A stretch of 53,126 bases of DNA, from NCBI RefSeq assembly GCF_028868675.1, contig NZ_JAGWUA010000006.1:1-53126 (forward strand). Direction: 5' to 3'. The notes beneath the pieces were generated by a model, which searched no databases, was not told where the DNA came from, and worked only from the letters and a program-made list of their open reading frames with translations. Below, piece by piece: positions 53 to 41,673 of the stretch. Within the stretch, counting starts at the first letter, position 1, and each line of letters begins with the position of its first letter. Source of the DNA: Bradyrhizobium sp. (GTDB lineage: Bacteria; Pseudomonadota; Alphaproteobacteria; Rhizobiales; Xanthobacteraceae). The position numbers and the translations under genes were made by a program.

Positions 53-526
53 ATGCGCATCCGTCTCCTCATCCCGGCTCTCGTCGTGCTTCTGGCCGGA
101 TCGGTCGCCGCCCAGCACAGCCATCACGGCCACATGGACCACGGCGCTGGGGCGGCCGACACGCGCGAGTTCGTCAGCTTTCCTCCGGAACTCGTCGTGC
201 ACACCATGGCCAACATGCGCGACCACCTCCTGGCGCTCCAGGAGATCAGTGACTCCTTGGCGAACGATCAGCCGGACAAGGCCGCAAGAATCGCCGAGCA
301 GCGTCTGGGCATGAGTTCACTGCCACTGCACGGCGCCGACGAGGTCGCCGCGTTCATGCCGAAGGGCATGCAGGACGCCGGCACCACCATGCATCGCGCG
401 GCGAGCCGCTTCGCCATTGAGGCGCAAAATGTGGGCGTCACCGGCGAGCTCAAGCCCGCGCTGGGCGCGCTGGCCGAGGTCATGCGCGCCTGCGCCGGTT
501 GTCACGCCGGCTATCGGCTGAAATAG
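53..526 (+). CDS. Exported cytochrome c'-like protein with histidine-rich N-terminus
   Basis: A 157-residue protein with a Sec signal peptide (about residues 1-20, ending VAAQ). A single haem motif CAGCH lies almost at the C-terminus, in the context RACAGCHAGYR. A C-terminal CxxCH after a helical body is the layout of cytochrome c', a four-helix periplasmic monohaem protein that often binds NO or CO. The mature N-terminus has an unusual histidine run (HSHHGHMDHG, residues 22-31) that could bind a metal; that is inference. The ATG at 53 is followed by a clear signal peptide. The gene ends 9 bp from the convergent histidine kinase. The family assignment is moderately sure; the function is unknown. 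Confidence 0.75.
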   Translation: MRIRLLIPALVVLLAGSVAAQHSHHGHMDHGAGAADTREFVSFPPELVVHTMANMRDHLLALQEISDSLANDQPDKAARIAEQRLGMSSLPLHGADEVAAFMPKGMQDAGTTMHRAASRFAIEAQNVGVTGELKPALGALAEVMRACAGCHAGYRLK

Positions 527-28666: not shown

Positions 28667-29782
28667 TCACGCCTTCGACGCGGCCGGGCGGGCGTCCGGC
28701 TGCGCCGCGCCGGCGCGGTCGACGAGCAGATCGGTCAGGCCCGCGCCCAGCCACATGCCGCCGAGCACGAGCCAGGCCGTCAGCGCGAACACGGAGGCGC
28801 CGGTGACGCCGGCGCCCACCGCGCAGCCGCCGGCGAGCATGGCGCCAAAGCCCATCAGCACCGCACCCAACAGGTAGCGGCGCATGCCGAGGCCGTCGGA
28901 AAATCCCTCGAGCTTCAGTTCGTGCGCGAGCGCCGCGGCGACGAACGAGCCGAGGAACACGCCGGGAATGATGCCGAGGTCGAAGCCGAGCCTGATCTGC
29001 GAGGAGTTGAGCACCAGCATCAGCAATTCGGCCGACGGGCCGGAAAAGGTCAGGCTCTTCAGCGTCACCGGGGCGAAGGACGACTGCGACAGCTGATAGG
29101 TGAAGAGCCAGCCGGCGACGACGGCCGCTCCCGTCGCGAGCGCCGACAGGATCAGGCGCCGCGGCAGGCGGCTGCGAAAGGCGAAGGCGAGGCCCGCGAT
29201 CAGCCACAGGCCGCCGAAGGCGAGCTTCTCCGGCGTGCCGCCGCCGAACACCGCCATGATGTCGCGCGACGGTCCGCCGTCGACCAGCCACAGATTGGTC
29301 AGCCATTCGCGCGCGGGCGACAGCAGGCCGTGCCAGGCGGCCTGCGCCGTCACCGCGAAGACGAGACCGGACAAGAGCGCGCGCAGGTTTCCGTTGGCCG
29401 ACAGCACGAGCAGCCGGCTCGCGCAGCCGCGGGCAAGGATCATGCCGCAGCCGAACATCACGCCGCCGATCATGGCGCCGGAAATGCTGCCCTGCTGCGC
29501 GAGCTGGCGCGCCTCGGAGACATCCAGCCAGCGGATCGCGACGAGCGCCTGCGTGCCGACGAGCGCCGCGGCGAAGGTCAGCAGCCAGACCGCAAGGCGC
29601 GGCCCGCCCTCGCCGCGCGAGAATTCGACCGCGGCGGCGCGCAGGCAGAACCGGCTCCTCTGGGCGAAGAAGCCGAAGAGGCCGCCGACCACGAGGCCGC
29701 CGAGCCAGGAGAGCCGGTCTTCACCCAGGAGATCGATGACCGATGTCAGCACGGCGCGCTCAGTTTTCGTCAGAGCCGGCAA
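28667..29782 (-). CDS. YeeE/YedE-family sulfur-compound transporter (sox-distal)
   Basis: Up to 371 residues and about ten membrane segments. It has the conserved cysteine motifs of the YeeE/YedE (TsuA) thiosulfate-uptake family: FAQRSRFCLRAA, GCGMILARGCASR and AGGCAVGAGVTG. It should move thiosulfate or another sulfur species across the inner membrane. The longest start is a TTG at 29782 with no clear ribosome binding site; a GTG at 29752 is an alternative. It lies 53 bp past the second DsrE-like gene on the same strand, closing the sox locus, while a second family member (soxT) closes the other side. Confidence 0.87.
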   Translation of the reverse strand: MPALTKTERAVLTSVIDLLGEDRLSWLGGLVVGGLFGFFAQRSRFCLRAAAVEFSRGEGGPRLAVWLLTFAAALVGTQALVAIRWLDVSEARQLAQQGSISGAMIGGVMFGCGMILARGCASRLLVLSANGNLRALLSGLVFAVTAQAAWHGLLSPAREWLTNLWLVDGGPSRDIMAVFGGGTPEKLAFGGLWLIAGLAFAFRSRLPRRLILSALATGAAVVAGWLFTYQLSQSSFAPVTLKSLTFSGPSAELLMLVLNSSQIRLGFDLGIIPGVFLGSFVAAALAHELKLEGFSDGLGMRRYLLGAVLMGFGAMLAGGCAVGAGVTGASVFALTAWLVLGGMWLGAGLTDLLVDRAGAAQPDARPAASKA

Positions 29783-29835
29783 GTCTAGCGACGTCGCGAT
29801 TCCGCCCCATGAGCCAGATCAAGGCCGCGCACGGC

Positions 29836-30279
29836 TCAGGGCCGCAAGTACGCAAAGCCCTGCTGCTGCAGCTCCGCAATCCGCACCACGCCGCCCTTCT
29901 CGGCCACCACGAAGCCGGGGATGAGGTCGTCGAGCTTGACGCCCTGCGCCTTCATGGTGTTGGCGCAGGCGTCGAAGCCGACGCCTTCCTGCGCCAGCTT
30001 CTGCATCGCCGCCACGGTGTGATCCTGGGCGGCGAGCGCATGGAACGCACGCAGCGCCGGGCCGTGAACGACGAGCCTGATGTCGGCCTTGCCGGGTCCG
30101 CCGACGCCATCGACGTGGTTCTGCAGATTGCCGAGCACGAAGACGACACGATCGGCATCCGCGAGGTGATAGACGACGCGCTGGCGCGCGGCCGGTTCGG
30201 CGGCCGCAGCGGCGCCGCCTGCGCCGAACGCCCCCAACAGTCCGGCAAGGCCCGCGCGAAGCATGGATCGACGCTGCAT
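29836..30279 (-). CDS. Exported DsrE-like sulfur-carrier protein (A)
   Basis: A 147-residue DsrE/DsrF-like protein with an export signal containing a twin arginine (MQRRSMLRAGLAGLLGAFGA...). The conserved cysteine of the family is in FDACANTMKAQG, which in DsrE-type proteins can carry a persulfide. The fold pattern (VVYHLADADRVVFVLGNLQNH, ADIRLVVHGPAL, GVVRIAELQQQGFAYLRP) is complete. DsrE proteins are normally cytosolic, so an exported version beside sox genes suggests a periplasmic persulfide relay; that is inference. A strong AGGAGG precedes the start. It is 8 bp after the hydrolase gene. Confidence 0.85.
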   Translation of the reverse strand: MQRRSMLRAGLAGLLGAFGAGGAAAAAEPAARQRVVYHLADADRVVFVLGNLQNHVDGVGGPGKADIRLVVHGPALRAFHALAAQDHTVAAMQKLAQEGVGFDACANTMKAQGVKLDDLIPGFVVAEKGGVVRIAELQQQGFAYLRP

Positions 30280-30287
30280 GTCTCCTC

Positions 30288-31190
30288 CTATCGTGTCTGC
30301 TTGATGAATTCGGCGATGCGATCGGCCGCGTCCTCGGCAAAGAGGTCGCGGAAGAAATGGTCGGCGTCCTCGATGGTGTCGAGCTGCACCCGGCCGCCGC
30401 TCGCGCCCGCGAGCTTCGCGAAGGACGTCGCCACATCAGGCACGACCGTGTCCTTCGTTCCCGCCAGCACGAGCACGGGCATCTTCAGTTGCGCCACCAG
30501 CGCCACGGTGTCCTGGCCGGGATCGGCCGCGTAGAACGAGGCAAAGGCGCGCGCCGTCACCGTGGCGTCGCGGCAGTAGATGAAACCGGGCACGGTCATC
30601 CATTCGCCGCCGCGCCCGGCCGCAACGGCCCTGGTCGCCTGCTCCAGCAACGGCTCGAGCGGCCTGCCGTAGGTTGCGGCATAGGACGCGCGAAGGCTCG
30701 CTTCGGCCGTGGCGGTGACCGGCGCAAGCAGTACGGCGGCCGCGACCGCGCCGCCGTTCGCCGCCAGATAACGCGCTACCTGGTTGCCGCCGCGCGAATG
30801 GCCGAAGGCGTAGATGCGCCGCGACAGGCCCTTTGCGTGTCGCACCCAGGCATCGATTTCGGCTGCGGCGTCATCGGTGACGTAGTCGTGGCGGGTCGCG
30901 CAGTCGTACATGCCCTTGCGGCGGTCCTGCCCGAGCGCCAGCGTGTGGGCGAGCGAGGCGATGCCGCGCTCGGCCAGCGCCTGCGCCAGCGTCCGGATCA
31001 CGTCCATGTCCTTGTGCGCCAGCGTGCCGTGGGTCATCACGACCAGCGGCGTGTCGGCCTGCATCGACGCCGGCGTGCGCAGCGTGGCGAGAACCGTGCG
31101 GCCGCCGACCGACAGCTCGATGTCCTGCTCGGCAGCGGCAGCCGTTCCGGCCAACGCGAGCAGGATCGAAAGTCCCACCAACCATCGCAT
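30288..31190 (-). CDS. Exported alpha/beta hydrolase in the sox operon
   Basis: A 300-residue protein with a Sec signal (MRWLVGLSILLALAGTAAAA). The alpha/beta-hydrolase landmarks are the oxyanion segment VVMTHGTLAHKDMD, the nucleophile elbow FGHSRGGNQ, the acid in LAGTKDTVVPD and the histidine in IEDADHFF. Two cysteines (MYDCATR and FIYCRDA) could form a disulfide. The substrate is unknown. The gene is embedded between two exported DsrE-like genes (gaps 14 and 8 bp) and downstream of soxCD, so it is almost surely expressed with the sox genes. A role in cleaving a sulfur-containing ester or thioester is possible but speculative. Confidence 0.85.
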   Translation of the reverse strand: MRWLVGLSILLALAGTAAAAEQDIELSVGGRTVLATLRTPASMQADTPLVVMTHGTLAHKDMDVIRTLAQALAERGIASLAHTLALGQDRRKGMYDCATRHDYVTDDAAAEIDAWVRHAKGLSRRIYAFGHSRGGNQVARYLAANGGAVAAAVLLAPVTATAEASLRASYAATYGRPLEPLLEQATRAVAAGRGGEWMTVPGFIYCRDATVTARAFASFYAADPGQDTVALVAQLKMPVLVLAGTKDTVVPDVATSFAKLAGASGGRVQLDTIEDADHFFRDLFAEDAADRIAEFIKQTR

Positions 31191-31669: not shown

Positions 31670-32367
31670 TCCACGCCCCGCGATTTCTTGTCCTTGTCTT
31701 CCGGCGTCACGTCGATGGCGGCGGCACGGGCGGTGATCTTCACCGGCGCGATGCAATTCTTCATGCAGGGATCCTTCTGCCAGAACGATTTCTCCGCGGC
31801 GGCGCGGTCGTCCATGACGAAACCCTGCTCGTTCGGCATCTTGATCGCGGCGAGATTCTTGTTGTTCAGCTCGAAATCCTGGTCGGTGATGACGTCGTTG
31901 AGATAGAGGACGTAGGCGACCAGCGCGTAATATTCGTCGACCTTGAAGGCCTCCGCGTTGCCGTAGGGCATGGCGTGGCGGACGTAGTCGAACACGGTCG
32001 AGGCATAGGGCCAGTAGGAGCCGACCGTCTTCACCGGGTTGTCGGAGGTCAGCGAGCCCTTGCCGCCGGCGAGCACGGGCCAGCGGCCGTTGCCCTCGCC
32101 GAACTCGCCGTGGCAGGATGCACAATTGTCCATGAACAGCTTTTCGCCCTGCGCGACCGTGCCCTTGCCCTCGGGCAGGCCCTGGCCGTCCGGACGCACG
32201 TCGATGTCCCAGCCGCGGATCTCCTCCGCCGTCGGGGCGCGGCCGATGTCGTAGCGCGGAGCGGACTTTGCCTCCGTTTTGGCGTCCGGCTTGCTCTGCG
32301 CCAGCGCCGGGGAGGCGATCGCGCCGGCGAGCAGCGCCGCGGCGACGAGCTTAGGCAACTTCGACAT
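31666..32367 (-). CDS. soxD: Sulfane dehydrogenase cytochrome c subunit SoxD, short monohaem form
   Basis: A 233-residue periplasmic cytochrome c with a Sec signal (to about residue 23). There is a single haem motif CASCH (82-86), and the likely axial methionine is M133 in HAMPYGN. The classic Paracoccus SoxD is longer and has two haems; no second CxxCH exists here. A C-terminal DPCMKNC segment (C201, C205) may form a disulfide. It partners the molybdenum subunit SoxC, with which it overlaps by 17 bp, and passes electrons from sulfane oxidation. The start at 32367 gives a proper signal peptide. Confidence 0.88.
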   Translation of the reverse strand: MSKLPKLVAAALLAGAIASPALAQSKPDAKTEAKSAPRYDIGRAPTAEEIRGWDIDVRPDGQGLPEGKGTVAQGEKLFMDNCASCHGEFGEGNGRWPVLAGGKGSLTSDNPVKTVGSYWPYASTVFDYVRHAMPYGNAEAFKVDEYYALVAYVLYLNDVITDQDFELNNKNLAAIKMPNEQGFVMDDRAAAEKSFWQKDPCMKNCIAPVKITARAAAIDVTPEDKDKKSRGVE

Positions 32368-33619
32368 TCTCGACCTCACCATTGGCCTGCACGTGCCAGG
32401 TCTGGATGCCATTGTTGTGATAGATGGAATTGACGCCGCGGATCTTGCGGAGCTCGGCCTTGCTCGGCTGCACGTAGCCGGTCTCGTCCTGCACGCGCGA
32501 TTGCAGCAGGAGCGGCTCGCCATTCCAGTCGAACTCGTAGTAGAAGCGCGCCAGCGCCTTGTCGAGCACGGGCCCGTCGAGCCGCGCCGGCCGCCAGTTG
32601 CGGCCGCCGTCGAGCGAGACGTCGACGCGCTTGACCTTGCCGTTGCCGCTCCAGGCGAGCCCCGAGATGATGGTAAAGCCCTTGCCGTGCCTGATCGGCG
32701 CCTGCGGACTCGGGCTCGTGATCACGGATTTGGCGTCCATCGCCCAGGTGAAGCGGCGCGCCTTTCCGCTCGGCAGGAGGTCGGTGTATTTCGAGGTCTC
32801 CTCGCGGGTATGCCAGGGCTGGTCGCCGACCTTGATGCGGCGCAGCCACTTGACCCAGAGATTGCCCTGCCAGCCCGGAACGACCAGCCGCATCGGATAG
32901 CCCTGCTCGGGATAGAGCGCCTCGCCGTTCATCTTGTAGGCGATGATGCAGTCGTCGAGCGCCTTCTCGATCGGCAGGCTGCGATCCATCGCGGCGGCGT
33001 CCGCGCCTTCGACCAGCAGCCACTTGCCGTTGGTCTTGACGCCGGCCTCCTCGAGCAGCGTGCGCAGCGACACGCCGGTGTACTGCACGCAATGGATCAT
33101 GCCGTGGGTGAACTGGCAGCCGTTGAGCTGGGCGCCGCGCCATTCCATGCCGGAATTGGCCGCGCACTCCATGAAGTGGATCCGGTTGACGCGCGGATAG
33201 CGCTTCAGCTCCTCCAGCGTCAGGATCAGCGGACGCTCGACCAGGCCATGGATCATCAGGCGATGGTCGGCCGGGTCGATCTCGGCGATGCCGCCGTGAT
33301 GGCGCTCGAAGCAGAGGCCGTTGGGCGTGATGATGCCTTCGAGCTCGTGCAGCGGCGTGAAGCTGACGGACGATTCGCGCGAGGCGGTCAGCCATTCGAC
33401 GTCGCGGCGGACGACGTCCTTCTCGAATTTCGAGGGCTTGCCGTAGGGCCGCACCGCGACGCCCTCGCCGAGCGCCCTGGTCCATTCCGGCACGTTGGGC
33501 GGCTGGTTCGCGGGATTGCCGCCGGCCCCCGCCGGCCTTGCCAGCATCGTCGCGGCAACGCCTGCGCCTGCGGCGAGGAAGTTGCGGCGGGACTGGCCTT
33601 GCTCGTCCATCTTCGACAT
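32351..33619 (-). CDS. soxC: Sulfane dehydrogenase molybdenum subunit SoxC
   Basis: A 422-residue sulfite oxidase-family molybdoenzyme with a Tat signal (QSRRNFLAAGAGVAATML). The molybdenum-ligating cysteine is C152 in HFMECAANSG. The dimerisation domain occupies the last 120 residues (VKRVDVSLDGGRNW). In the Sox system SoxCD oxidises the outer sulfane sulfur left on SoxY, yielding six electrons. It requires molybdenum cofactor, whose pathway gene moaA is elsewhere in this window. The start at 33619 lies 5 bp after soxB; an in-frame GTG at 33628 would overlap soxB. Confidence 0.95.
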   Translation of the reverse strand: MSKMDEQGQSRRNFLAAGAGVAATMLARPAGAGGNPANQPPNVPEWTRALGEGVAVRPYGKPSKFEKDVVRRDVEWLTASRESSVSFTPLHELEGIITPNGLCFERHHGGIAEIDPADHRLMIHGLVERPLILTLEELKRYPRVNRIHFMECAANSGMEWRGAQLNGCQFTHGMIHCVQYTGVSLRTLLEEAGVKTNGKWLLVEGADAAAMDRSLPIEKALDDCIIAYKMNGEALYPEQGYPMRLVVPGWQGNLWVKWLRRIKVGDQPWHTREETSKYTDLLPSGKARRFTWAMDAKSVITSPSPQAPIRHGKGFTIISGLAWSGNGKVKRVDVSLDGGRNWRPARLDGPVLDKALARFYYEFDWNGEPLLLQSRVQDETGYVQPSKAELRKIRGVNSIYHNNGIQTWHVQANGEVENVEVA

Positions 33620-33624
33620 CGCTC

Positions 33625-35316
33625 TCACGCTCCGGTCACCTTGACGGCGCGGTTCGGCTCGAGCCGAACCGTCTTCTGCCGCGTCAAATAGTTCGCAACG
33701 ACGTCCCAGATCGGCGGCCCCTCCGTGCCCTCGTTGACGCTGGCCCAGCCGGCCACCTGGTATTCCCTGTTCGGGTCGATCGGCGCGCCGGTCCTGGCGA
33801 GCTGCATGTCGGAGATGCGGCTGCCTTGCGGCCTGGCGATGTCGATCGCGTAGGACAGCCCGCCGATCCGCACCATGTCGCCGCCCTGCTGATAGTAGGG
33901 ATCGACGTTGAAGAGGTTGTCGGCGACGTCCTCGATGATCTCCTTCAGCCGTGCGCCCGTCATGCCCATGCGGTAGACGGCCGGGTAGGTGATGGCGGTG
34001 GCGTTGGTGACGTCCTCGAAGGTGATGTCCTGGCCCGGCAGCACGCTGGTGCCCCAGCGGAAGCCCGGCGACAGCGCGATCTCGGCATCGCGCTCGGTCA
34101 GCAGCGCCTGGCAGATCAGATCGTCGAAGGTGCCGTTGAAATTGCCGCGCCGGTAGAGCAGCGAGTCGGTCTTGCCGAGCACGCGCGAGAGATCGGCAGC
34201 AAATGGCTTGCGCACCTCGGCGATCTTCGCGGCCATCTCCGCATCCGGCGTGATGATGTCGGAGAACAGCGGGATCAGCTTGTACCGGAACGCCTTGACC
34301 TCGCCGTCGCGGACGTCGAGATCGAGCCGGGACACGAATTTTCCGGACGAGCCCGACGCGATCAGCAGCGTCTTGCCGACCTTGACAGCCTCGGGCAGCG
34401 CGTCATGGGTATGGCCGGTCAGGATGACGTCGATGCCCCTGACGCGGGAGGCCAGCTTGCGGTCGACGTCAAAACCGTTGTGCGACAGCAGCACGACGAG
34501 CTGCGCGCCGCCCTTGCGCGCCTTGTCGACCTGCGCCTGGACGTCCTCCTCGCGCACGCCGAACGACCAGTTCGGGATCATCCAGCGCGGATTGGCGACC
34601 GGCGTATAGGGAAAGGCCTGACCGAGCACCGCGATCTTGACGCCGCCGCGCTCGATCGTGGTGGAGGCCTCGAACGCCGCCTCGTTCCATTCGGTGTCGC
34701 GGATGTTGAGGCCAAGGAAGGGGAAGCCGAGACCTTCGATCGCCTGCTTGACGCGCTCGGTGCCGTAGGTGAATTCCCAGTGGCCGGTCATGGCGTCGGG
34801 CTTGAGCAGGGCCATGCAGTCGATCATGTCCTGGCCGCGCGTCTTCAGCGACGACCACGAGCCCTGCCAGGTGTCGCCGCCGTCGAGCAGCGCGACCTTG
34901 TCGCCGCGCTCGGCGCGGATCGCCTTGATCACGGTGGCGGCGCGATCGAGCCCGCCGATCTTGCCGTAGGTTTTTGCCAGCGCCTCGAAATCCTCAGAGG
35001 TCAGTGCGTAGGCCGCCGACGAGCCCGGCGCGACGCCGAAGCGGGCGAGGAACTCCTTCGCGGTGACGTGCGGCGGCAGCCCCTTGGCCTCGCCGACGCC
35101 GAGATTGGTCGAGGGTTCGCGGAAATAGAGCGGCATCAGCTGGCCGTGGATGTCGGTGACATGCACCAGCGTGACGTTGCCGAGCGGCTCGAAGGCCAGC
35201 AATTCCTTCTCGCTCAGGCGCTGCTGGGCGAAGGCCCGCGACAGGCCGGCACCGGGGCCGGCCGTGAGCGCGGCGGTCGCCGCGGCAACCTGAATGAATT
35301 CACGGCGCGAGATCAT
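33625..35316 (-). CDS. soxB: Thiosulfohydrolase SoxB
   Basis: A 563-residue dimanganese hydrolase of the 5'-nucleotidase/metallophosphoesterase superfamily, which removes sulfate from SoxY-bound thiosulfonate. It has a Tat signal (MISRREFIQVAAATAALTAG). Metal and active-site segments are VTDIHGQLMPLYFREPS (D55, H57), LDGGDTWQGS, GHWEFTYG (the SoxB-specific replacement of GNHE), LSHNGFDVDRKLA and LTGHTHDALPEA. Length and motifs are diagnostic of SoxB. It is in the middle of the operon with gaps of 25 bp (soxA) and 5 bp (soxC). Confidence 0.97.
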   Translation of the reverse strand: MISRREFIQVAAATAALTAGPGAGLSRAFAQQRLSEKELLAFEPLGNVTLVHVTDIHGQLMPLYFREPSTNLGVGEAKGLPPHVTAKEFLARFGVAPGSSAAYALTSEDFEALAKTYGKIGGLDRAATVIKAIRAERGDKVALLDGGDTWQGSWSSLKTRGQDMIDCMALLKPDAMTGHWEFTYGTERVKQAIEGLGFPFLGLNIRDTEWNEAAFEASTTIERGGVKIAVLGQAFPYTPVANPRWMIPNWSFGVREEDVQAQVDKARKGGAQLVVLLSHNGFDVDRKLASRVRGIDVILTGHTHDALPEAVKVGKTLLIASGSSGKFVSRLDLDVRDGEVKAFRYKLIPLFSDIITPDAEMAAKIAEVRKPFAADLSRVLGKTDSLLYRRGNFNGTFDDLICQALLTERDAEIALSPGFRWGTSVLPGQDITFEDVTNATAITYPAVYRMGMTGARLKEIIEDVADNLFNVDPYYQQGGDMVRIGGLSYAIDIARPQGSRISDMQLARTGAPIDPNREYQVAGWASVNEGTEGPPIWDVVANYLTRQKTVRLEPNRAVKVTGA

Positions 35317-35341
35317 GCGCTGCTCTCCTCAAGACCGTCGT

Positions 35342-36166
35342 TCAGTTGCGCACGGAGGGCGTCTCGACCGGCAGCCCGATGCCGCGCCAGGCGACGTAGA
35401 CCTCGAGCGCGAGGAACTCGTCCGACAGCGGCTTGTAGGGCTCGGCGCGCACGTCGAACATGCAGCCCTCGAAGCGTTCGTGCAGCGGCACCAGGCGCTG
35501 GTCGCGCAAACGGTAGGTCGGGAAGCCGTTGGTCTGGCCCTGGCTCAGGAAGTCGGCGCGCATGAACTTGCCGTTGTTGCGCTCGTGGCAGGAGGCGCAG
35601 GCGAGATCGAGCTGGCCGACCCGGGTATAGTAGATCTGCTTGCCGCGCTCGAACCACGGCGACATCGGCCCGTCGGTCTTCACCGCCACCGGCATGCCGC
35701 GCGACTGGAAGCGCACGAAGGCGGTCATGTCGGTCAGCGCCTGCGACTTGAACGCCCAGGGCTCCGCCTTCATCTTCTCGGTGCGGCAGATGTTGATGCG
35801 CTGCTCGAGATTGACCGGCTTCTTCAGCCTGTCGTCCCATTTGGGCATGGCGGCGCCGACGCCCTTCATGGTCGTCTCCGCCTCGCCGTGGCAGCTCGCG
35901 CAGGACTTGCCCTCGCTGCCCTCGACCTTCTTCCAGGCGTCGGCGGCGCGCTCCACCGCGAGGAAGCCCGGATTCTCCAGGTCGTCGTCCTGCAGCGCGC
36001 GCGTCTCCTTGCTGCGGAACTCGTAGCCGGAGATGATGGTCTTGAAGACGTGGCCGGGCGGCGCAGGAATGCCCTTGCGTTCGGCCTCCTGCGCAGAAAT
36101 GCCCGCGCCGGTCAGGACGATTGCCGCCGCGGCGACGGCGAACAGGCCAACGTAACGAGACGTCAT
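35342..36166 (-). CDS. soxA: Dihaem cytochrome SoxA
   Basis: A 274-residue periplasmic cytochrome and catalytic half of SoxAX, which joins thiosulfate to the SoxY cysteine. Two CASCH haem motifs occur at 89-93 and 190-194. The catalytic cysteine ligand is C235 in FEGCMFDVRAEPY, which becomes a persulfide in known SoxA proteins. C127 (INICRTE) matches the disulfide-type cysteine of the dihaem class. A Sec signal covers about residues 1-25. The start at 36166 is preferred over 36199 because GGGAG lies 9 nt before it. Confidence 0.96.
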   Translation of the reverse strand: MTSRYVGLFAVAAAAIVLTGAGISAQEAERKGIPAPPGHVFKTIISGYEFRSKETRALQDDDLENPGFLAVERAADAWKKVEGSEGKSCASCHGEAETTMKGVGAAMPKWDDRLKKPVNLEQRINICRTEKMKAEPWAFKSQALTDMTAFVRFQSRGMPVAVKTDGPMSPWFERGKQIYYTRVGQLDLACASCHERNNGKFMRADFLSQGQTNGFPTYRLRDQRLVPLHERFEGCMFDVRAEPYKPLSDEFLALEVYVAWRGIGLPVETPSVRN

Positions 36167-36195
36167 CCGACCACTCCCTCGAAGCCCCAGCGGCA

Positions 36196-36522
36196 TCATG
36201 CCTTGAGCGCGATCTTCTCTTCGGCCGTGATCACCGTGCCGTCATCGTCGGTCCAGGAGAACTTGAACGTTCCGGCCTCATCCACCTTCGCATTGAACTG
36301 GATGTAGGGATTGGCGGAGATCGCGGGCTCCAGCGCGCAGGCGAACAGCGGTTTGCCGTTGAACTCGCAGGCGAACTTGTTGATGATCTTGCGCGGAATG
36401 GCCTTGCCCTGCGCGTCCTTGCGCTGGCCGGATTCCATGACGTGCGAGACCAGGGTCTTGATCTGGATGACGTCGCCCTTGGCCGCTTCCTTGGGAAGCT
36501 TGATGCGCGGTTTGTCTGCCAT
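36196..36522 (-). CDS. soxZ: Sulfur carrier complex subunit SoxZ
   Basis: A 108-residue immunoglobulin-like protein without a signal peptide, exported as a complex with SoxY through the SoxY signal. The SoxZ wording PRIKLPKEAAKGDVIQIKTL, HVMESGQRKD and ISANPYIQFNAKVDEAGTF is clear. It binds SoxY and shapes the swinging-arm docking surface. The start at 36522 has AGGAG 9 nt upstream. Gaps to soxY and soxA are 20 and 29 bp. Confidence 0.96.
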   Translation of the reverse strand: MADKPRIKLPKEAAKGDVIQIKTLVSHVMESGQRKDAQGKAIPRKIINKFACEFNGKPLFACALEPAISANPYIQFNAKVDEAGTFKFSWTDDDGTVITAEEKIALKA

Positions 36523-36542
36523 GATGTTTCTCCTCTCGCTTC

Positions 36543-36995
36543 CTAGCCGCCGCAGCCGCCGATGGTGACCTTCACGGTCTTCTGCTCCGTGAACAGGCTG
36601 CCGTCGCTCATCTTCGCGATCGCCACCACGTTCTGGGTGGCCGCGAGCCGGATCCGGATCGAGGCCTCGGCCTTGCCCGAGAGCGGCGTGAACATCAGCG
36701 TCGCGACGCCGGCGTTCGGGTTGCCGTCGGCGAGGATCATGACCTCCTTGACGTAGGCCTGCTCCGTCATCGGGCTCTCGACGCTGAGCGACAGCGGCAC
36801 TGTGTTGCCGTTCTCCGCGATCTCCGGCAGGTCGAGCGAGATCTTGCCCTTCACCGGCGCCTTGCCGCCGGTGAATTTCTCGATCCACTTGGCGGCGTCG
36901 TTGGTGACTTGCGCATCGGCCGCCATCGGCATCAGGGTCAGCATGACGAAGCCGCCCCCGAGCGCGAATGCCTGCCGTCGATTGATGGCTTTCAT
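36543..36995 (-). CDS. soxY: Sulfur carrier protein SoxY
   Basis: A 150-residue carrier with an export signal of twin-arginine type (MKAINRRQAFALGGG). It ends in the swinging-arm peptide VTIGGCGG, whose cysteine (C148) covalently holds the sulfur intermediates during thiosulfate oxidation. This C-terminus is diagnostic. Start 36995 has GGAGG upstream. It lies between soxX and soxZ with gaps of 17 and 20 bp. Confidence 0.97.
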   Translation of the reverse strand: MKAINRRQAFALGGGFVMLTLMPMAADAQVTNDAAKWIEKFTGGKAPVKGKISLDLPEIAENGNTVPLSLSVESPMTEQAYVKEVMILADGNPNAGVATLMFTPLSGKAEASIRIRLAATQNVVAIAKMSDGSLFTEQKTVKVTIGGCGG

Positions 36996-37012
36996 TCCTG
37001 TCCTCCTCGCTG

Positions 37013-37456
37013 TCAGTTCAGCGTCTTGAGATAAGCGACGACGTCCTCGACCTGCGCGGCCGTCAGGATCGTCTTGCCGACGAATTCGGGGCGCACCCGG
37101 CTCAAGCCGTCGTTCCGGTAGAACGCGGGCATCACGGTGTCGGCGAAGATGCGCTTGGGGTCGGCGACGATGAGGCGAAGCTGCGCCTCGCTGTAGCGGC
37201 CGGCGACGCCGTCGAGCGACGGGCCGAACTCGCCGTGGAATTCCTCGGACTTCAGGCTGGTGACCTGGTGGCAGGCCAGGCAATTGCCGAGCGTGCGCGT
37301 CAGGAACACCTTCTTGCCGGCGCCCGCATTGCCGGGCGCGCCGGTCAGCGATTTCGGCAGGGAGTCGTTGACGACATCGAGCTTGATCGGCTCCTGCGCG
37401 GAGGCGGCTGCCGCCCACAGACACAATGCCAACGCGGCGACGCGCGAGCGCTGCAT
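37013..37456 (-). CDS. soxX: Monohaem cytochrome SoxX
   Basis: A 147-residue periplasmic cytochrome with a Sec signal (residues 1-20). The haem motif is CLACH (59-63) in RTLGNCLACHQV, and the axial methionine is M109 in DTVMPAFYR. SoxX pairs with SoxA to form the SoxAX enzyme. It is the first gene of the long minus-strand sox operon; a promoter and candidate operator lie in the gap upstream. A GC-rich hairpin sits in its leader just before the ribosome binding site. Confidence 0.96.
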   Translation of the reverse strand: MQRSRVAALALCLWAAAASAQEPIKLDVVNDSLPKSLTGAPGNAGAGKKVFLTRTLGNCLACHQVTSLKSEEFHGEFGPSLDGVAGRYSEAQLRLIVADPKRIFADTVMPAFYRNDGLSRVRPEFVGKTILTAAQVEDVVAYLKTLN

Positions 37457-37519: not shown

Positions 37520-37560
37520 ATTCAGTTATCATGATATGTTGATGTAAAAGGCGGCGTCAA
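37520..37560 (-). promoter_or_regulatory. soxX operon promoter with overlapping candidate SoxR operator
   Basis: On the minus strand, TTGACG (37555-37560) and TATCAT (37531-37536) are separated by 18 bp and form a good sigma-70-type promoter about 70 bp before soxX. The -10 element lies inside the palindrome TATCATGATA (37527-37536) and overlaps the site ATTC-N8-TGAT (37520-37535), an imperfect copy of the ATTC-N8-GAAT site near soxW. A repressor here would block the -10 region. Confidence 0.6.
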
Positions 37561-37584: not shown

Positions 37585-38190
37585 CTAGCCGCTGGTGGCG
37601 AGGAATTCCCGGAACGAGCCGCGCTCATAGGCGCGCTCGCGCACGAAGCGGAACATCGCCAGGAAATGCTGCGGCTTGAGATAGCCGGGCGCGCGGGTAA
37701 CCTCCCGCGCCATCGGCTCTTTCGCCTCGATGCCGGCAGCCTGCGGCGGAAAGAACTGGAACGTCGGGGTGAAGCGGATTCCGTACTTCTGGGCGAGGTC
37801 CTTCTCCGACAATTCCTGCTTGTCGAAATCCGTAACCTTGCGGGAGCCGATCAGGTTGAGCTGCAGCACCTCGAAATTGTCGCGGATGTAGCTCGCGATC
37901 GCTTCGTCGGCAAAGTTCACCAGATGGGTCTCGCGGCAATAGGGGCAGCCGCGCAGCTCCCACATGATGACGAGGCGCTTGCCGCTCGCGGCCGCGCTCT
38001 CCAGATCCTCGCGCAAGTCGAGAAAACTCTGCAGGAACCAGGGTTCGTGGTAGAGGCCGTCCTCGCCGGGCGCAGGCTCGGCACGCGCTTCGCCGCCCGC
38101 TGCGACGACCGCAGCCCCCGACGTGAGCGCGAGGAAGCCGCGACGCGAGAACAGCGGGGCATGCATTCGAGAAGCTTGCGTGTCGGTCAT
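37585..38190 (-). CDS. soxW: Periplasmic thioredoxin SoxW, possibly leaderless mRNA
   Basis: A 201-residue thioredoxin-fold protein with a Tat-type signal (SRRGFLALTSGAAVVAAGG). The active site is ELRGCPYCRETH with C82 and C85. Together with SoxV and SoxS it keeps Sox cysteines reduced. Two starts are possible (38190 and 38166); neither has a ribosome binding site. A promoter with TTGTCA-N16-TATCAT would start transcription almost at 38190, which suggests a leaderless message or use of 38166. It ends 128 bp before soxX on the same strand, and soxX has its own promoter. Confidence 0.88.
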   Translation of the reverse strand: MTDTQASRMHAPLFSRRGFLALTSGAAVVAAGGEARAEPAPGEDGLYHEPWFLQSFLDLREDLESAAASGKRLVIMWELRGCPYCRETHLVNFADEAIASYIRDNFEVLQLNLIGSRKVTDFDKQELSEKDLAQKYGIRFTPTFQFFPPQAAGIEAKEPMAREVTRAPGYLKPQHFLAMFRFVRERAYERGSFREFLATSG

Positions 38191-38196
38191 TTGATG

Positions 38197-38224
38197 ATGA
38201 TATTCAAATGCTCGAATGTGACAA
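38197..38224. promoter_or_regulatory. soxW promoter with candidate SoxR operator ATTC-N8-GAAT
   Basis: On the minus strand, TTGTCA (38219-38224) and TATCAT (38197-38202) are 16 bp apart. The perfect inverted site ATTC-N8-GAAT (38202-38217) fills the space between them. As I recall, ArsR-type persulfide sensors of the SqrR/BigR group use this half-site arrangement, and the sox locus encodes such a regulator. The site also lies just before the ribosome binding site of the divergent helical-protein gene, so it could control both directions. Confidence 0.6.
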
Positions 38225-38236
38225 GGATTTCCCATC

Positions 38237-38959
38237 TTGCGCTGCATCATCGCTCTGCTGGCATGGCTCGTCGCAACGGGAGCCGGCCTCGGCGCCGAGG
38301 CCGGAAAGCCCGTTGATTTCCCGTCCGCCGTCCAGTCGGTCATGGCCAATCTGCGCACGGCGGCAAGCTACGCCCGCACCGGCAACATCGCGCTCGCCCA
38401 GATGGAGACCGAGGAGGCGCAGACCGCGTGGCAGGCGCTGCAAGACGGCGCAACTGCCGCTCCCCTGCCCCCTTACGCGCCGGCGGCGCTGCAGGATTTT
38501 CTCGCCAGGGGCCGCGCGCAGCTCAAGGGCATAAATGACGCGCTCGGCGGCGGCGACAACGTCGCGGCGGGCCGCGACCTCTTCGCGGTCCGCAAATCGT
38601 TCCATGATCTCCGGCGCAAATCGGGACTCTACGATCTCGGCGACTGCGTCTTCGAGATCGCGCCCGCGATGGAGAGGCTGCGCGCGGCTGCGACGGGCTT
38701 TGGCGAGCAGCCGGCCGGCGCACGCGCCGAAGACACCGTTTCCGCCGCCGCCGCGTTTCGCGACCGGCTGCAGCGCTGCAACGATTGGGCGAGCGCCGAG
38801 ATCTCCGCGCAGCCCGAATTCCGCCGGCTGATCGACGGCGCGACCGCCAGCGCAGGCGAGATCGCGCATGCGGCGATGGCCGGCGACGCCCCGCTGGTAC
38901 ATCGCTATCTGATCGAGCTGCAGTCCTACGCGCAGTTGCTCGACTTCCGCTTCGGCTAG
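38237..38959 (+). CDS. Exported helical protein of unknown function in the sox locus, TTG start
   Basis: A 240-residue protein with a Sec signal (MRCIIALLAWLVATGAGLGA). It is almost entirely amphipathic helix. The segments VMANLRTAASYARTGNIALAQ and QLKGINDALGGGDNVAAGRD are laid out like the four-helix bundle of cytochrome c', but there is no CxxCH; the two mature-chain cysteines are in LGDCVFE and LQRCNDW. I do not recognise a family. The TTG start has AAGGA 9 nt upstream. It is divergent from soxW, shares a 46-bp gap with the candidate SoxR operator, and ends 2 bp from the convergent soxV, so sulfur-dependent expression is likely. Confidence 0.75.
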   Translation: MRCIIALLAWLVATGAGLGAEAGKPVDFPSAVQSVMANLRTAASYARTGNIALAQMETEEAQTAWQALQDGATAAPLPPYAPAALQDFLARGRAQLKGINDALGGGDNVAAGRDLFAVRKSFHDLRRKSGLYDLGDCVFEIAPAMERLRAAATGFGEQPAGARAEDTVSAAAAFRDRLQRCNDWASAEISAQPEFRRLIDGATASAGEIAHAAMAGDAPLVHRYLIELQSYAQLLDFRFG

Positions 38960-38961
38960 CA

Positions 38962-39693
38962 TCAGCCGATGCTGGTCAGTCCGGGGAGGCGCTCCAGCAG
39001 CCACTGCGAGACTGACGGCATCAGGCCGGCGAGGAACGCCAGCCCGGTCGCGACCAGGAACGCGCCCATGGTCTTCTCGACGAGGCCGAGATGCCGACGC
39101 GCCCGGCCAAGCATCGCGACGAAACGGCCGGTGAAGGCGGCCGCGATCAGGAAGGGAATGCCGGTGCCGGCCGAATAGGCCAGCAGCAAGAGCGCGCCCC
39201 GGCCCGCCGTGTCTTCGGATCCCGCCATCAACAGCACCGCGGCGAGGATGGGGCCCGCGCAGGGCGTCCAGCCGAACGCGAAGGCGAGCCCCATGACGAA
39301 GGCGCCCGCCAGCCCCGCCGGCCGGTTCTCGACCTGCACGGTTGCGCTCCGGTAGAGCAGCGGAATCCGGATCAGGCCGAGAAAGTGCAGGCCCATGACG
39401 ATGATCAGGACGCCCGCGACCGTGCCGAGCGCCGACAGATGCGCGGTGATGAAGCGGCCCGCCAGCGATGCGGTCGTGCCGAGCGCGACGAAGACGAGCG
39501 AGAAGCCGGCGACGAAGGCCAGCGCCGCGACCAGCACGCGCGGCCGCAGCTCCGGCCGGTCGGCCGACAGCTCCGTGACCGAAACGCCGGCCATGTAGCA
39601 GAGGAAAGGCGGCACCAGGGGCAGGATGCAGGGCGAGAGAAAGGACAACAGACCGGCGACGAAGGCCGCCCCGAGCGTGACGTCCAGACCCAT
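38962..39693 (-). CDS. soxV: CcdA-family thiol-electron transporter SoxV
   Basis: A 243-residue membrane protein with six segments of the CcdA/DsbD type. The redox cysteines lie in the first and fourth segments: SFLSPCILPLVPPFLCYMAG and FGWTPCAGPILAAVL. It transfers reducing equivalents from cytosolic thioredoxin to the periplasmic SoxW or SoxS. It is read divergently from soxS across a 91-bp AT-richer gap, and convergently with the unknown helical-protein gene. Confidence 0.93.
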   Translation of the reverse strand: MGLDVTLGAAFVAGLLSFLSPCILPLVPPFLCYMAGVSVTELSADRPELRPRVLVAALAFVAGFSLVFVALGTTASLAGRFITAHLSALGTVAGVLIIVMGLHFLGLIRIPLLYRSATVQVENRPAGLAGAFVMGLAFAFGWTPCAGPILAAVLLMAGSEDTAGRGALLLLAYSAGTGIPFLIAAAFTGRFVAMLGRARRHLGLVEKTMGAFLVATGLAFLAGLMPSVSQWLLERLPGLTSIG

Positions 39694-39736: not shown

Positions 39737-39784
39737 AAAGAGGTCGAGAAGTCCAGAAGGAAGTCCACCAGAAGCCTTGCCGTG

Positions 39785-40156
39785 ATGACCCGGTTCACCA
39801 TCCATCTCGCCGCTGCCGCGATTTTCGCGCTGCTCGCAACGACCGCTTCCGCCGCCGAGCTCGTGATGTTCGAGCGCGCCGGCTGCGTCTGGTGCGCGCG
39901 TTTCGACGCCGAGGTCGCGCCGATCTACGGCAAGACCGACGAGAGCCAGGCCGCGCCGTTGCGCCGTGTCGATTTGGGCCGCCCCCTGCCCGCCGACCTC
40001 GCCGGAATCGATCCGGGCGCCTTCACACCGACGTTCGTCGTGCTAGACGACGGACGCGAGATCGGGCGTATTCGCGGCTATCCGGGGGACGCCTTCTTCT
40101 TCGGCCTCCTGGGCCGGATCCTGACCAACGCGGGACCGGCGTCCGGCCGGTCGTGA
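39785..40156 (+). CDS. soxS: Periplasmic thioredoxin-like SoxS
   Basis: A 123-residue thioredoxin-fold protein with a Sec signal (MTRFTIHLAAAAIFALLATT, cleavage near ASAAE). The active site is FERAGCVWCARF with C34 and C37. In known Sox systems SoxS keeps the carrier SoxYZ reduced and active. A GTG at 39782 precedes the ATG by one codon; ribosome binding is poor at both. It leads the soxS-soxR-soxT set and is divergent from soxV. Confidence 0.9.
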   Translation: MTRFTIHLAAAAIFALLATTASAAELVMFERAGCVWCARFDAEVAPIYGKTDESQAAPLRRVDLGRPLPADLAGIDPGAFTPTFVVLDDGREIGRIRGYPGDAFFFGLLGRILTNAGPASGRS

Positions 40157-40175: not shown

Positions 40176-40526
40176 ATGTCACTGCCGAAACTGAAAGAGA
40201 TCGAAGGCTCCGCCGAGCTCGAGCAGATGATCGAGAAGGCGCGCGAGGCCAGCGACATGCTGAAGGCGCTCTCGCACGAATCGCGCCTGCTGCTGCTCTG
40301 CATCCTCGCCGAGGGCGAGAAGTCGGTGACCGAGCTCGAGCAGTTCCTGGGCGAACGGCAGTCGACGGTCTCGCAGCAGCTCGCGCGGCTGCGGCTCGAT
40401 CGCCTCGTCACGACGCGCCGCGACGGCAAGGCGATCTATTACAGCCTCGCCAACGAAGAGGTGCGCAAGATCCTGACCGCCATCTACGACGTGTTCTGCG
40501 AGCCGGTCCGTCGCCGCCGCAGGTGA
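40176..40526 (+). CDS. soxR: ArsR-family repressor SoxR with persulfide-sensor cysteine pair
   Basis: A 116-residue winged-helix ArsR-family repressor. The DNA-binding helix is in GERQSTVSQQLARLRLDRLV and the wing in TTRRDGKAIYYSL. Two cysteines, C42 (LLLLCILAEGEKS) and C108 (YDVFCEP), sit at the positions of the two reactive cysteines of SqrR/BigR-type persulfide sensors, and no metal-binding CxC motif of arsenic sensors is present. It should repress the sox promoters and release them when persulfide links the cysteines. It lies 19 bp after soxS and 73 bp before soxT. It is unrelated to the MerR-type SoxR of enterobacteria. Confidence 0.92.
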   Translation: MSLPKLKEIEGSAELEQMIEKAREASDMLKALSHESRLLLLCILAEGEKSVTELEQFLGERQSTVSQQLARLRLDRLVTTRRDGKAIYYSLANEEVRKILTAIYDVFCEPVRRRRR

Positions 40527-40599: not shown

Positions 40600-41673
40600 A
40601 TGCTGAGTCCTTCGACCATCGCGTTTGCGTGCGGGCTTACCGCCGGCGCCCTGCTCGGCGTCGCCGGCCGGGCCGGCCGATTCTGCACGCTTGCGATGCT
40701 CGAGGATGCGTTCTTCGGATCGGACTTTCGCCGCCTGAAATCCTTCGCACTGGCCGCGGCGGTGGCGCTGCTGGCAACGCAGGCGCTGGCCCGGTTCGGC
40801 ATCGTCGACCTGTCGCGGTCGATCTATCTGACGCCGTCGATCGGGCTCGGCGGCGCCGTCGTCGGCGGGCTGATGTTCGGCGTCGGCATGGCGCTGGTGG
40901 GCACCTGCGGCTTCGGCACGCTGGTGCGCATCGGCGGCGGAGACTTGCGCGCGATCGTCGTCTTCCTCGTGCTCGGTATCTCGGCGCTGGCGACCATGCG
41001 CGGCATCACCGGAATGCTGCGCGTGCTGCTGATCGAGCCGCTGTCGCTGCGGCTGCCCGAAGGCACCAACCAGACGCTGACGTCGCTGCTCGGCCCCGGT
41101 TTCGGCGCGGCCCTCGCCATCTCCATCGCCGCCGCACTGGCGTGGTGGGCGCTCGCCGACGGCAAGCTGATCCGCTCGCCGAGGCTGTTCGCCTCCGGCC
41201 TTGCGGTCGGCGCGGCGATCGCGTTCGGCTGGTTCGCCACCGGCTGGCTTGCGGACGACGAGTTCGATCCGGTCCGCGTCTCGTCGCTGAGCTTCGTCGC
41301 CCCGCTCGGCGACGCCATCCTCTATATCGCCACCTTCTCCGGCGCGCGGCTGAATTTCGGCATCGGCTCGGTCGCCGGCGTCGTTGCCGGCTCGCTTGCC
41401 TCAGCCATGCTCGCACGCGGCTTCCGCTGGGAGGCCTGCGACGACGCGCGCGAACTGAAGCGCCACATGACCGGTGCGCTGCTGATGGGCATCGGCGGCA
41501 TCATGTCGATGGGATGCACCATCGGACAGGGTCTGTCCGCGTTCTCCACCCTCGCGGTGTCGGCCCCGATCGCGATGCTCTCGATCGCCTGCGGCGCGCG
41601 GCTCGGCCTCGAATTCACCATGACCGGCGAATGGCTGCCGGCCGTGCGCCGGCTGTTCGGGGCTTCGACGTAG
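40600..41673 (+). CDS. soxT: YeeE/YedE-family transporter SoxT
   Basis: A 357-residue membrane protein with about ten segments. YeeE/YedE cysteine motifs are GRAGRFCTLAMLEDA, MALVGTCGFGTLVR and MSMGCTIGQGLSAFS. By family and position it is the SoxT transporter for thiosulfate or another sulfur species. GGGAGGA lies unusually close to the ATG at 40600 (almost no spacer), so translation may be weak or coupled. It forms the plus-strand soxS-soxR-soxT set. A second family member lies at the far end of the locus (28667-29782). Confidence 0.88.
   Translation: MLSPSTIAFACGLTAGALLGVAGRAGRFCTLAMLEDAFFGSDFRRLKSFALAAAVALLATQALARFGIVDLSRSIYLTPSIGLGGAVVGGLMFGVGMALVGTCGFGTLVRIGGGDLRAIVVFLVLGISALATMRGITGMLRVLLIEPLSLRLPEGTNQTLTSLLGPGFGAALAISIAAALAWWALADGKLIRSPRLFASGLAVGAAIAFGWFATGWLADDEFDPVRVSSLSFVAPLGDAILYIATFSGARLNFGIGSVAGVVAGSLASAMLARGFRWEACDDARELKRHMTGALLMGIGGIMSMGCTIGQGLSAFSTLAVSAPIAMLSIACGARLGLEFTMTGEWLPAVRRLFGAST

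Follow-up and report, generated by a model that had tools for sequence, protein, structure and literature searches.

A Conserved Gene between soxV and soxW Encodes a Predicted Exported Protein of Two Tandem Helical Bundles, a Possible Accessory to Thiosulfate Oxidation in Alphaproteobacteria

Sox is the textbook system of thiosulfate oxidation, but how SoxS, SoxV, and SoxW keep its carrier SoxYZ active is understood only in part. In the classical order of Paracoccus pantotrophus and Rhodovulum sulfidophilum, soxV and soxW are adjacent and co-directional. The window, by which we mean the whole 53,126-nucleotide stretch of Bradyrhizobium sp. DNA analyzed here, has the same slot in a sox cluster, flanked by genes for SoxV (DsbD_TM) and SoxW (thioredoxin), but an antisense gene for a putatively exported helical protein lies in it, with its promoter next to soxW. 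What does this gene encode, and does its product belong to Sox? We use "Q" as a working label for the unnamed gene at 38237-38959 (+), and V-Q-W for its antisense position between soxV and soxW. The features discussed are collected in Table 1.

Q is a real gene, as seen from selection and from a start that is fixed across the genus. Compared with its 22 relatives in Bradyrhizobium (64-76% identity), Q is under purifying selection (dN/dS 0.20-0.32) and displays a third-position excess. The aligned genus members share the start position, which is TTG here and in most of them, GTG in L021, and ATG in L029, and a conserved AAGGA-like ribosome-binding site lies 5' of it. The product has 240 residues. 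The divergent gap to the soxW start at 38190 (-) is 46 bp, and the stop codon lies 2 bp from that of soxV; the reading frame, start, and spacing given in a first-pass annotation are borne out. That annotation described Q as interrupting the soxW/soxV order. Q does sit antisense between the two genes, but the slot itself is conserved (see below) and is no local interruption. The N-terminus is signal-like in Q and in most family members inspected by sequence, with cleavage placed by eye near GLGA/EA, and the product is accordingly predicted to reach the periplasm.

Table 1. Positions of Q, its parts, and the neighboring sox genes in the window
Feature	Position	Strand	Description	Basis
Gene Q	38237..38959	+	exported 240-aa protein (export predicted), two tandem four-helix bundles	ORF, conservation, dN/dS, AlphaFold2
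Signal peptide	38237..38302	+	predicted Sec-type, residues 1-22	sequence; low-confidence N-terminus in model
First four-helix bundle	38318..38620	+	residues 28-128	AlphaFold2
Second four-helix bundle	38636..38953	+	residues 134-239	AlphaFold2
Cys137 codon	38645..38647	+	helix 5; kept or lost together with Cys181	
Cys181 codon	38777..38779	+	helix 6; kept or lost together with Cys137	
ATTC-N8-GAAT palindrome	38202..38217		likely SoxR operator common to divergent soxW and Q	motif search, conservation, SqrR-site match
soxW	37585..38190	-	Tat-type periplasmic thioredoxin, divergent from Q	Thioredoxin_2, E 1.9e-17
soxV	38962..39693	-	CcdA/DsbD-type thiol transporter, convergent with Q	DsbD_TM, E 1e-19
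soxS-like	39782..40156	+	periplasmic thioredoxin	ORF list, domain match
soxR	40176..40526	+	ArsR-family repressor	HTH_5
soxT-like	40600..41673	+	YeeE/YedE sulfur transporter	Sulf_transp, E 3e-61
soxX-Y-Z-A-B-C	32351..37456	-	core genes, downstream of soxW	ORFs, domain matches

Among the neighbors, the soxR product has two cysteines placed, by eye, much as in SqrR, and a soxD-like reading frame comes next below 32,351. Past the soxCD end of the cluster, 28667-30279 (-) holds a second YeeE/YedE-type sulfur transporter (Sulf_transp, E 1e-48) that adjoins a DsrE/DsrF-family protein with a signal peptide, and an alpha/beta hydrolase with a signal-like N-terminus (30288-31190, -) separates the DsrE-like gene from the sox core. 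This genome also encodes a divergent second SoxB (52% identity; G000:C193:2-1366, at the edge of a contig), as do other Bradyrhizobium.

The gap between soxW and Q holds an exact ATTC-N8-GAAT, which is found nowhere else in the window (chance expectation 0.55). This is the recognition site of Rhodobacter capsulatus SqrR, a homologue of SoxR (quoted in PMC9774250); the soxW/Q site matches the SqrR/SoxR/YgaV operators exactly, and SoxR binding here is a prediction. Measured from the Q start, the palindrome has an identical offset in 21 of the 22 Bradyrhizobium loci, and L028 has one mismatch; this sustains the earlier placement of Q at a SoxR-type operator. As an exact operator in the soxW/Q gap it is found in Bradyrhizobium only; in other families, ATTC-N8-GAAT also precedes soxX, soxR, or soxW. 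An imperfect operator, ATTC-N8-(G)AT with 2/8 mismatches, lies upstream of soxX at 37520-37535 and is kept in relatives. SoxR of Bradyrhizobium diazoefficiens represses soxS, soxV, soxW, and soxY1 when thiosulfate is absent (PMC5748708), and that paper gives locus I as soxTRSVWXYZABCD; searching its text by term turned up no additional gene at the locus. SoxR would presumably bind the soxW/Q site and control Q.

The first-pass annotation called Q unrecognized, and our searches agree. Q matched no family in Pfam, NCBIfam, or PHROGs and no solved structure by sequence, a plasmid search gave no match, and Q is apparently unnamed in the open-access papers that we found. Two sets of hits were set aside. 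Members of the family gave weak Pfam matches (YfdX, DUF4363, cytochrome b562, TPR) with a best E of 1e-4 and in at most 5 of 31 members, which we take to be helix-composition noise. Profile matches in the PDB to designed chlorophyll-binding helical proteins (E 9e-11) have a score split over three stretches and were rejected as reflecting the alanine-rich repeat bias of de novo designs.

AlphaFold2, run on an alignment of limited diversity (Bradyrhizobium relatives only), predicts an all-helical mature chain of eight helices after the signal peptide (pLDDT 79, pTM 0.69), in keeping with the exported, nearly all-helical product read from the sequence at first pass. The helices form two bundles in tandem, the first from residues 28-47, 51-73, 83-104, and 108-128 and the second from residues 134-157, 161-184, 193-214, and 218-239; modeled alone, the second is a confident bundle (pLDDT 93, pTM 0.86). 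Compared with each other for a possible internal duplication, the two give an hhalign P of 4e-4 but a probability of only 34% over 46 columns. Foldseek against the PDB found no match at E ≤0.001 for either the full or the second-bundle model. Among single bundles, cytochrome c', PsbQ/CyanoQ, SMBP, and Kusta0087/0088 come closest, and they share one generic topology. The best single-bundle superpositions are with the Kuenenia Kusta0087/Kusta0088 complex, PsbQ/CyanoQ, and SMBP (rmsd ~2.4-3.5 angstrom), but with no significant E-value and ≤20% identity, a likeness of fold class only.

Cytochrome c' deserves separate treatment, as Q had been read at first pass as a cytochrome c'-like layout without heme, possibly a degenerate cytochrome c' serving as a partner that binds sulfur or has a structural function. 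The layout part stands in a limited sense. Like cytochrome c' (PF01322), Q is predicted to be exported and has the up-and-down four-helix bundle, a generic fold that it has twice in tandem; its second bundle superposes at TM ~0.6 (best E 0.03, not significant), and there is no CxxCH. The descent part does not survive a profile-profile comparison run alongside a positive control. When compared with 24 aligned cytochrome c' sequences, the Q family profile reached an hhalign probability of 0.3% (E 0.19), whereas the protein encoded at 53-526 of the window, with which a comparison had been proposed, reached 93% (E 4e-7) under identical conditions. Q has no Pfam match to PF01322 (Cytochrom_C_2), and CxxCH is absent from Q and all 31 aligned members, none of which has a remnant of the heme motif; the cysteine pair of Q is unrelated to the heme-motif positions, and Q consists of two bundles, not one. 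The TM values of PsbQ and Kusta0087/0088 are equal or better. Q therefore shares only the generic bundle fold with cytochrome c', with no homology by profile, and descent from it is very improbable, the least likely of the alternatives that we weighed. The 53-526 (+) product, a His-rich exported protein with CAGCH and a Pfam match of E 0.01 only, does look like a cytochrome c'-type heme protein, probably a distant relative of cytochrome c', unlike Q.

The two lone cysteines of the mature chain noted at first pass are Cys137 and Cys181 (Cys3 lies within the signal peptide). Of 31 diverse members, 28 have both, three (L063, L067, L068) have neither, and none has one alone. Judging from residue numbers, they are equidistant from the turn of the helix 5/6 hairpin, as expected of a cross-hairpin disulfide, and a structural disulfide fits as the economical reading. 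For a redox-active disulfide or a sulfur carrier, the catalytic or carrier cysteine would be expected in every member that shares the context, but L067 keeps the V-Q-W arrangement with neither cysteine. Sulfur binding by these residues, as first suggested, is weakened by the joint losses, and an essential sulfur-carrying role is unlikely. The same exceptions bear on the reading of Q as a redox client for SoxW, its Cys137-Cys181 pair being reversibly reduced by SoxV/SoxW to switch Q on and off. The position of the gene between soxV and soxW and the retention of both cysteines in most members would suit such a client; the cysteine-less members, with L067 in the full arrangement, and an antiparallel hairpin register that in the model fits a structural staple make it quite improbable.

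Conservation extends to other residues. Arg40, Arg47, Arg126, Arg196, Arg197, and Arg238 are conserved across 21-75% identity, and Trp65 is a further conserved position. We note that the chain end is unusually conserved: nearly all relatives end exactly in -(R/N/H)(F/Y/W)G or -RFGG (alignment A3), with no extension past the C-terminal -R(F/Y/W)G except one extra glycine. The arginines could mean that the bundles of Q bind a small sulfur anion of the periplasm (thiosulfate, sulfite, or tetrathionate), and Q would presumably be induced together with sox. We regard this as unlikely: buried Arg-Asp/Glu pairs are often conserved in bundle proteins for folding, and the same arginines are conserved where Q stands in a non-sox kinase/SDR context.

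The genomic position of Q was then followed beyond this genome with profile searches of ~1,000 further genomes, a partial sampling in which the first-look filter can miss distant members; all relatives placed so far are Alphaproteobacteria. Q is antisense between soxV and soxW at 21 of 22 Bradyrhizobium loci and occupies the same slot at 13 loci in nine family-level groups besides Bradyrhizobium (f13, f49, f36, f42, f23, f93, f117, f119, and another genus of f1), down to ~23% identity. The slot is kept despite rearranged surroundings, for example XYZAB-V-Q-W in L086 and L087, and in L091 and L093 Q and soxW are ~1.1 kb apart. In the genus of L091, L093, and L095 there are two tandem soxW-like genes with Q nearby. 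Sampled sox clusters that lack Q and have both soxV and soxW mostly have the two adjacent. Of the 24 genomes of the order that have Q, 21 carry a strong SoxB match, versus 133 of 398 overall; within Bradyrhizobium, Q accompanies the SoxB of the present cluster and not the divergent second SoxB, and genomes with the latter alone (~50% identity) are without Q. Q presence clusters on the SoxW, SoxV, and SoxB trees alike (3, 5, and 4 changes, respectively), and thus SoxW is not singled out as the partner. The tie to sox proposed at first pass, and its persistence beside sox genes in relatives, holds in these groups.

The exceptions are clear as well. In f20, all 12 sampled Q genomes have Q in or near a sugar kinase-Q-SDR array outside the V-W slot, and three of the 12 have no strong SoxB match. 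G460 has Q ~1.8 kb from a soxW-like gene and outside the slot, the stretches examined for the G796 and G117 relatives contain no sox genes, and in L031 soxW, but not soxV, stands beside Q. Because of these cases, the family of Q is mainly, not strictly, a sox family. The PfkB-kinase/Q/SDR array is conserved near recG and mfd (L073:6425-7138 and its equivalents in L070, L074, L081, and L085), and in G242 it lies ~2.3 kb from a sox cluster, where its Q is possibly a relocated one. The f20 arrays, three of them in genomes lacking a strong SoxB match, and the G117 and G796 relatives found apart from sox would suit a general helical-bundle protein of the envelope, perhaps involved in folding or stress, that sox clusters captured early and that stands mechanistically outside Sox. 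Retention of the sox slot over large divergence and the SoxR-type operator in Bradyrhizobium argue the other way, and we find this explanation improbable.

From the computed architecture, position, and conservation of Q, we infer a partner role. The same arrangement in distant Alphaproteobacteria suggests that Q is an overlooked accessory part of the thiosulfate-oxidizing machine, and our tentative preference, somewhat short of an even chance, is for a non-catalytic, cofactor-free exported accessory protein of Sox that partners the SoxV-SoxW branch, or its client SoxYZ, by docking or holding. SoxW is reduced by SoxV, going by the title of Appia-Ayme and Berks (2002) as cited in PMC10451225. 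Repression by SoxR would keep the divergent soxW/Q promoter silent until the presence of thiosulfate is signaled by sulfane sulfur, and derepression would yield Q and SoxW together. In the periplasm, Q, held by its putative structural disulfide, would act without a cofactor, docking or holding for the SoxV-SoxW thiol-reducing branch or for SoxYZ, with the conserved arginines and the almost invariant C-terminal -R(F/Y/W)G as candidate contact points. Whether docking, holding, or delivering SoxYZ or another client, the specific act is offered guardedly and is drawn from the position of Q, the absence of recognizable catalytic residues, and the bundle fold. The f20 kinase-Q-SDR arrays, three of them without strong SoxB, three other relatives outside the V-W slot, and the restriction of the exact soxW/Q operator to Bradyrhizobium count against the accessory reading. 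Working Sox systems that lack Q show that it is not generally essential.

A bolder and more doubtful extension of the accessory reading is that Q founds an undescribed alphaproteobacterial family that supplies a missing partner of the SoxV/SoxW branch and marks a Q-dependent Sox variant distinct from the Paracoccus model. If this is true, Q could be, for example, a docking scaffold that brings SoxYZ or SoxB to the thioredoxin to be reactivated. An additional conserved protein with predicted export, encoded between soxV and soxW in one set of Sox clusters, provides a defined gene to delete in the tractable B. diazoefficiens and may account for differences between lineages in the SoxV/SoxW branch.
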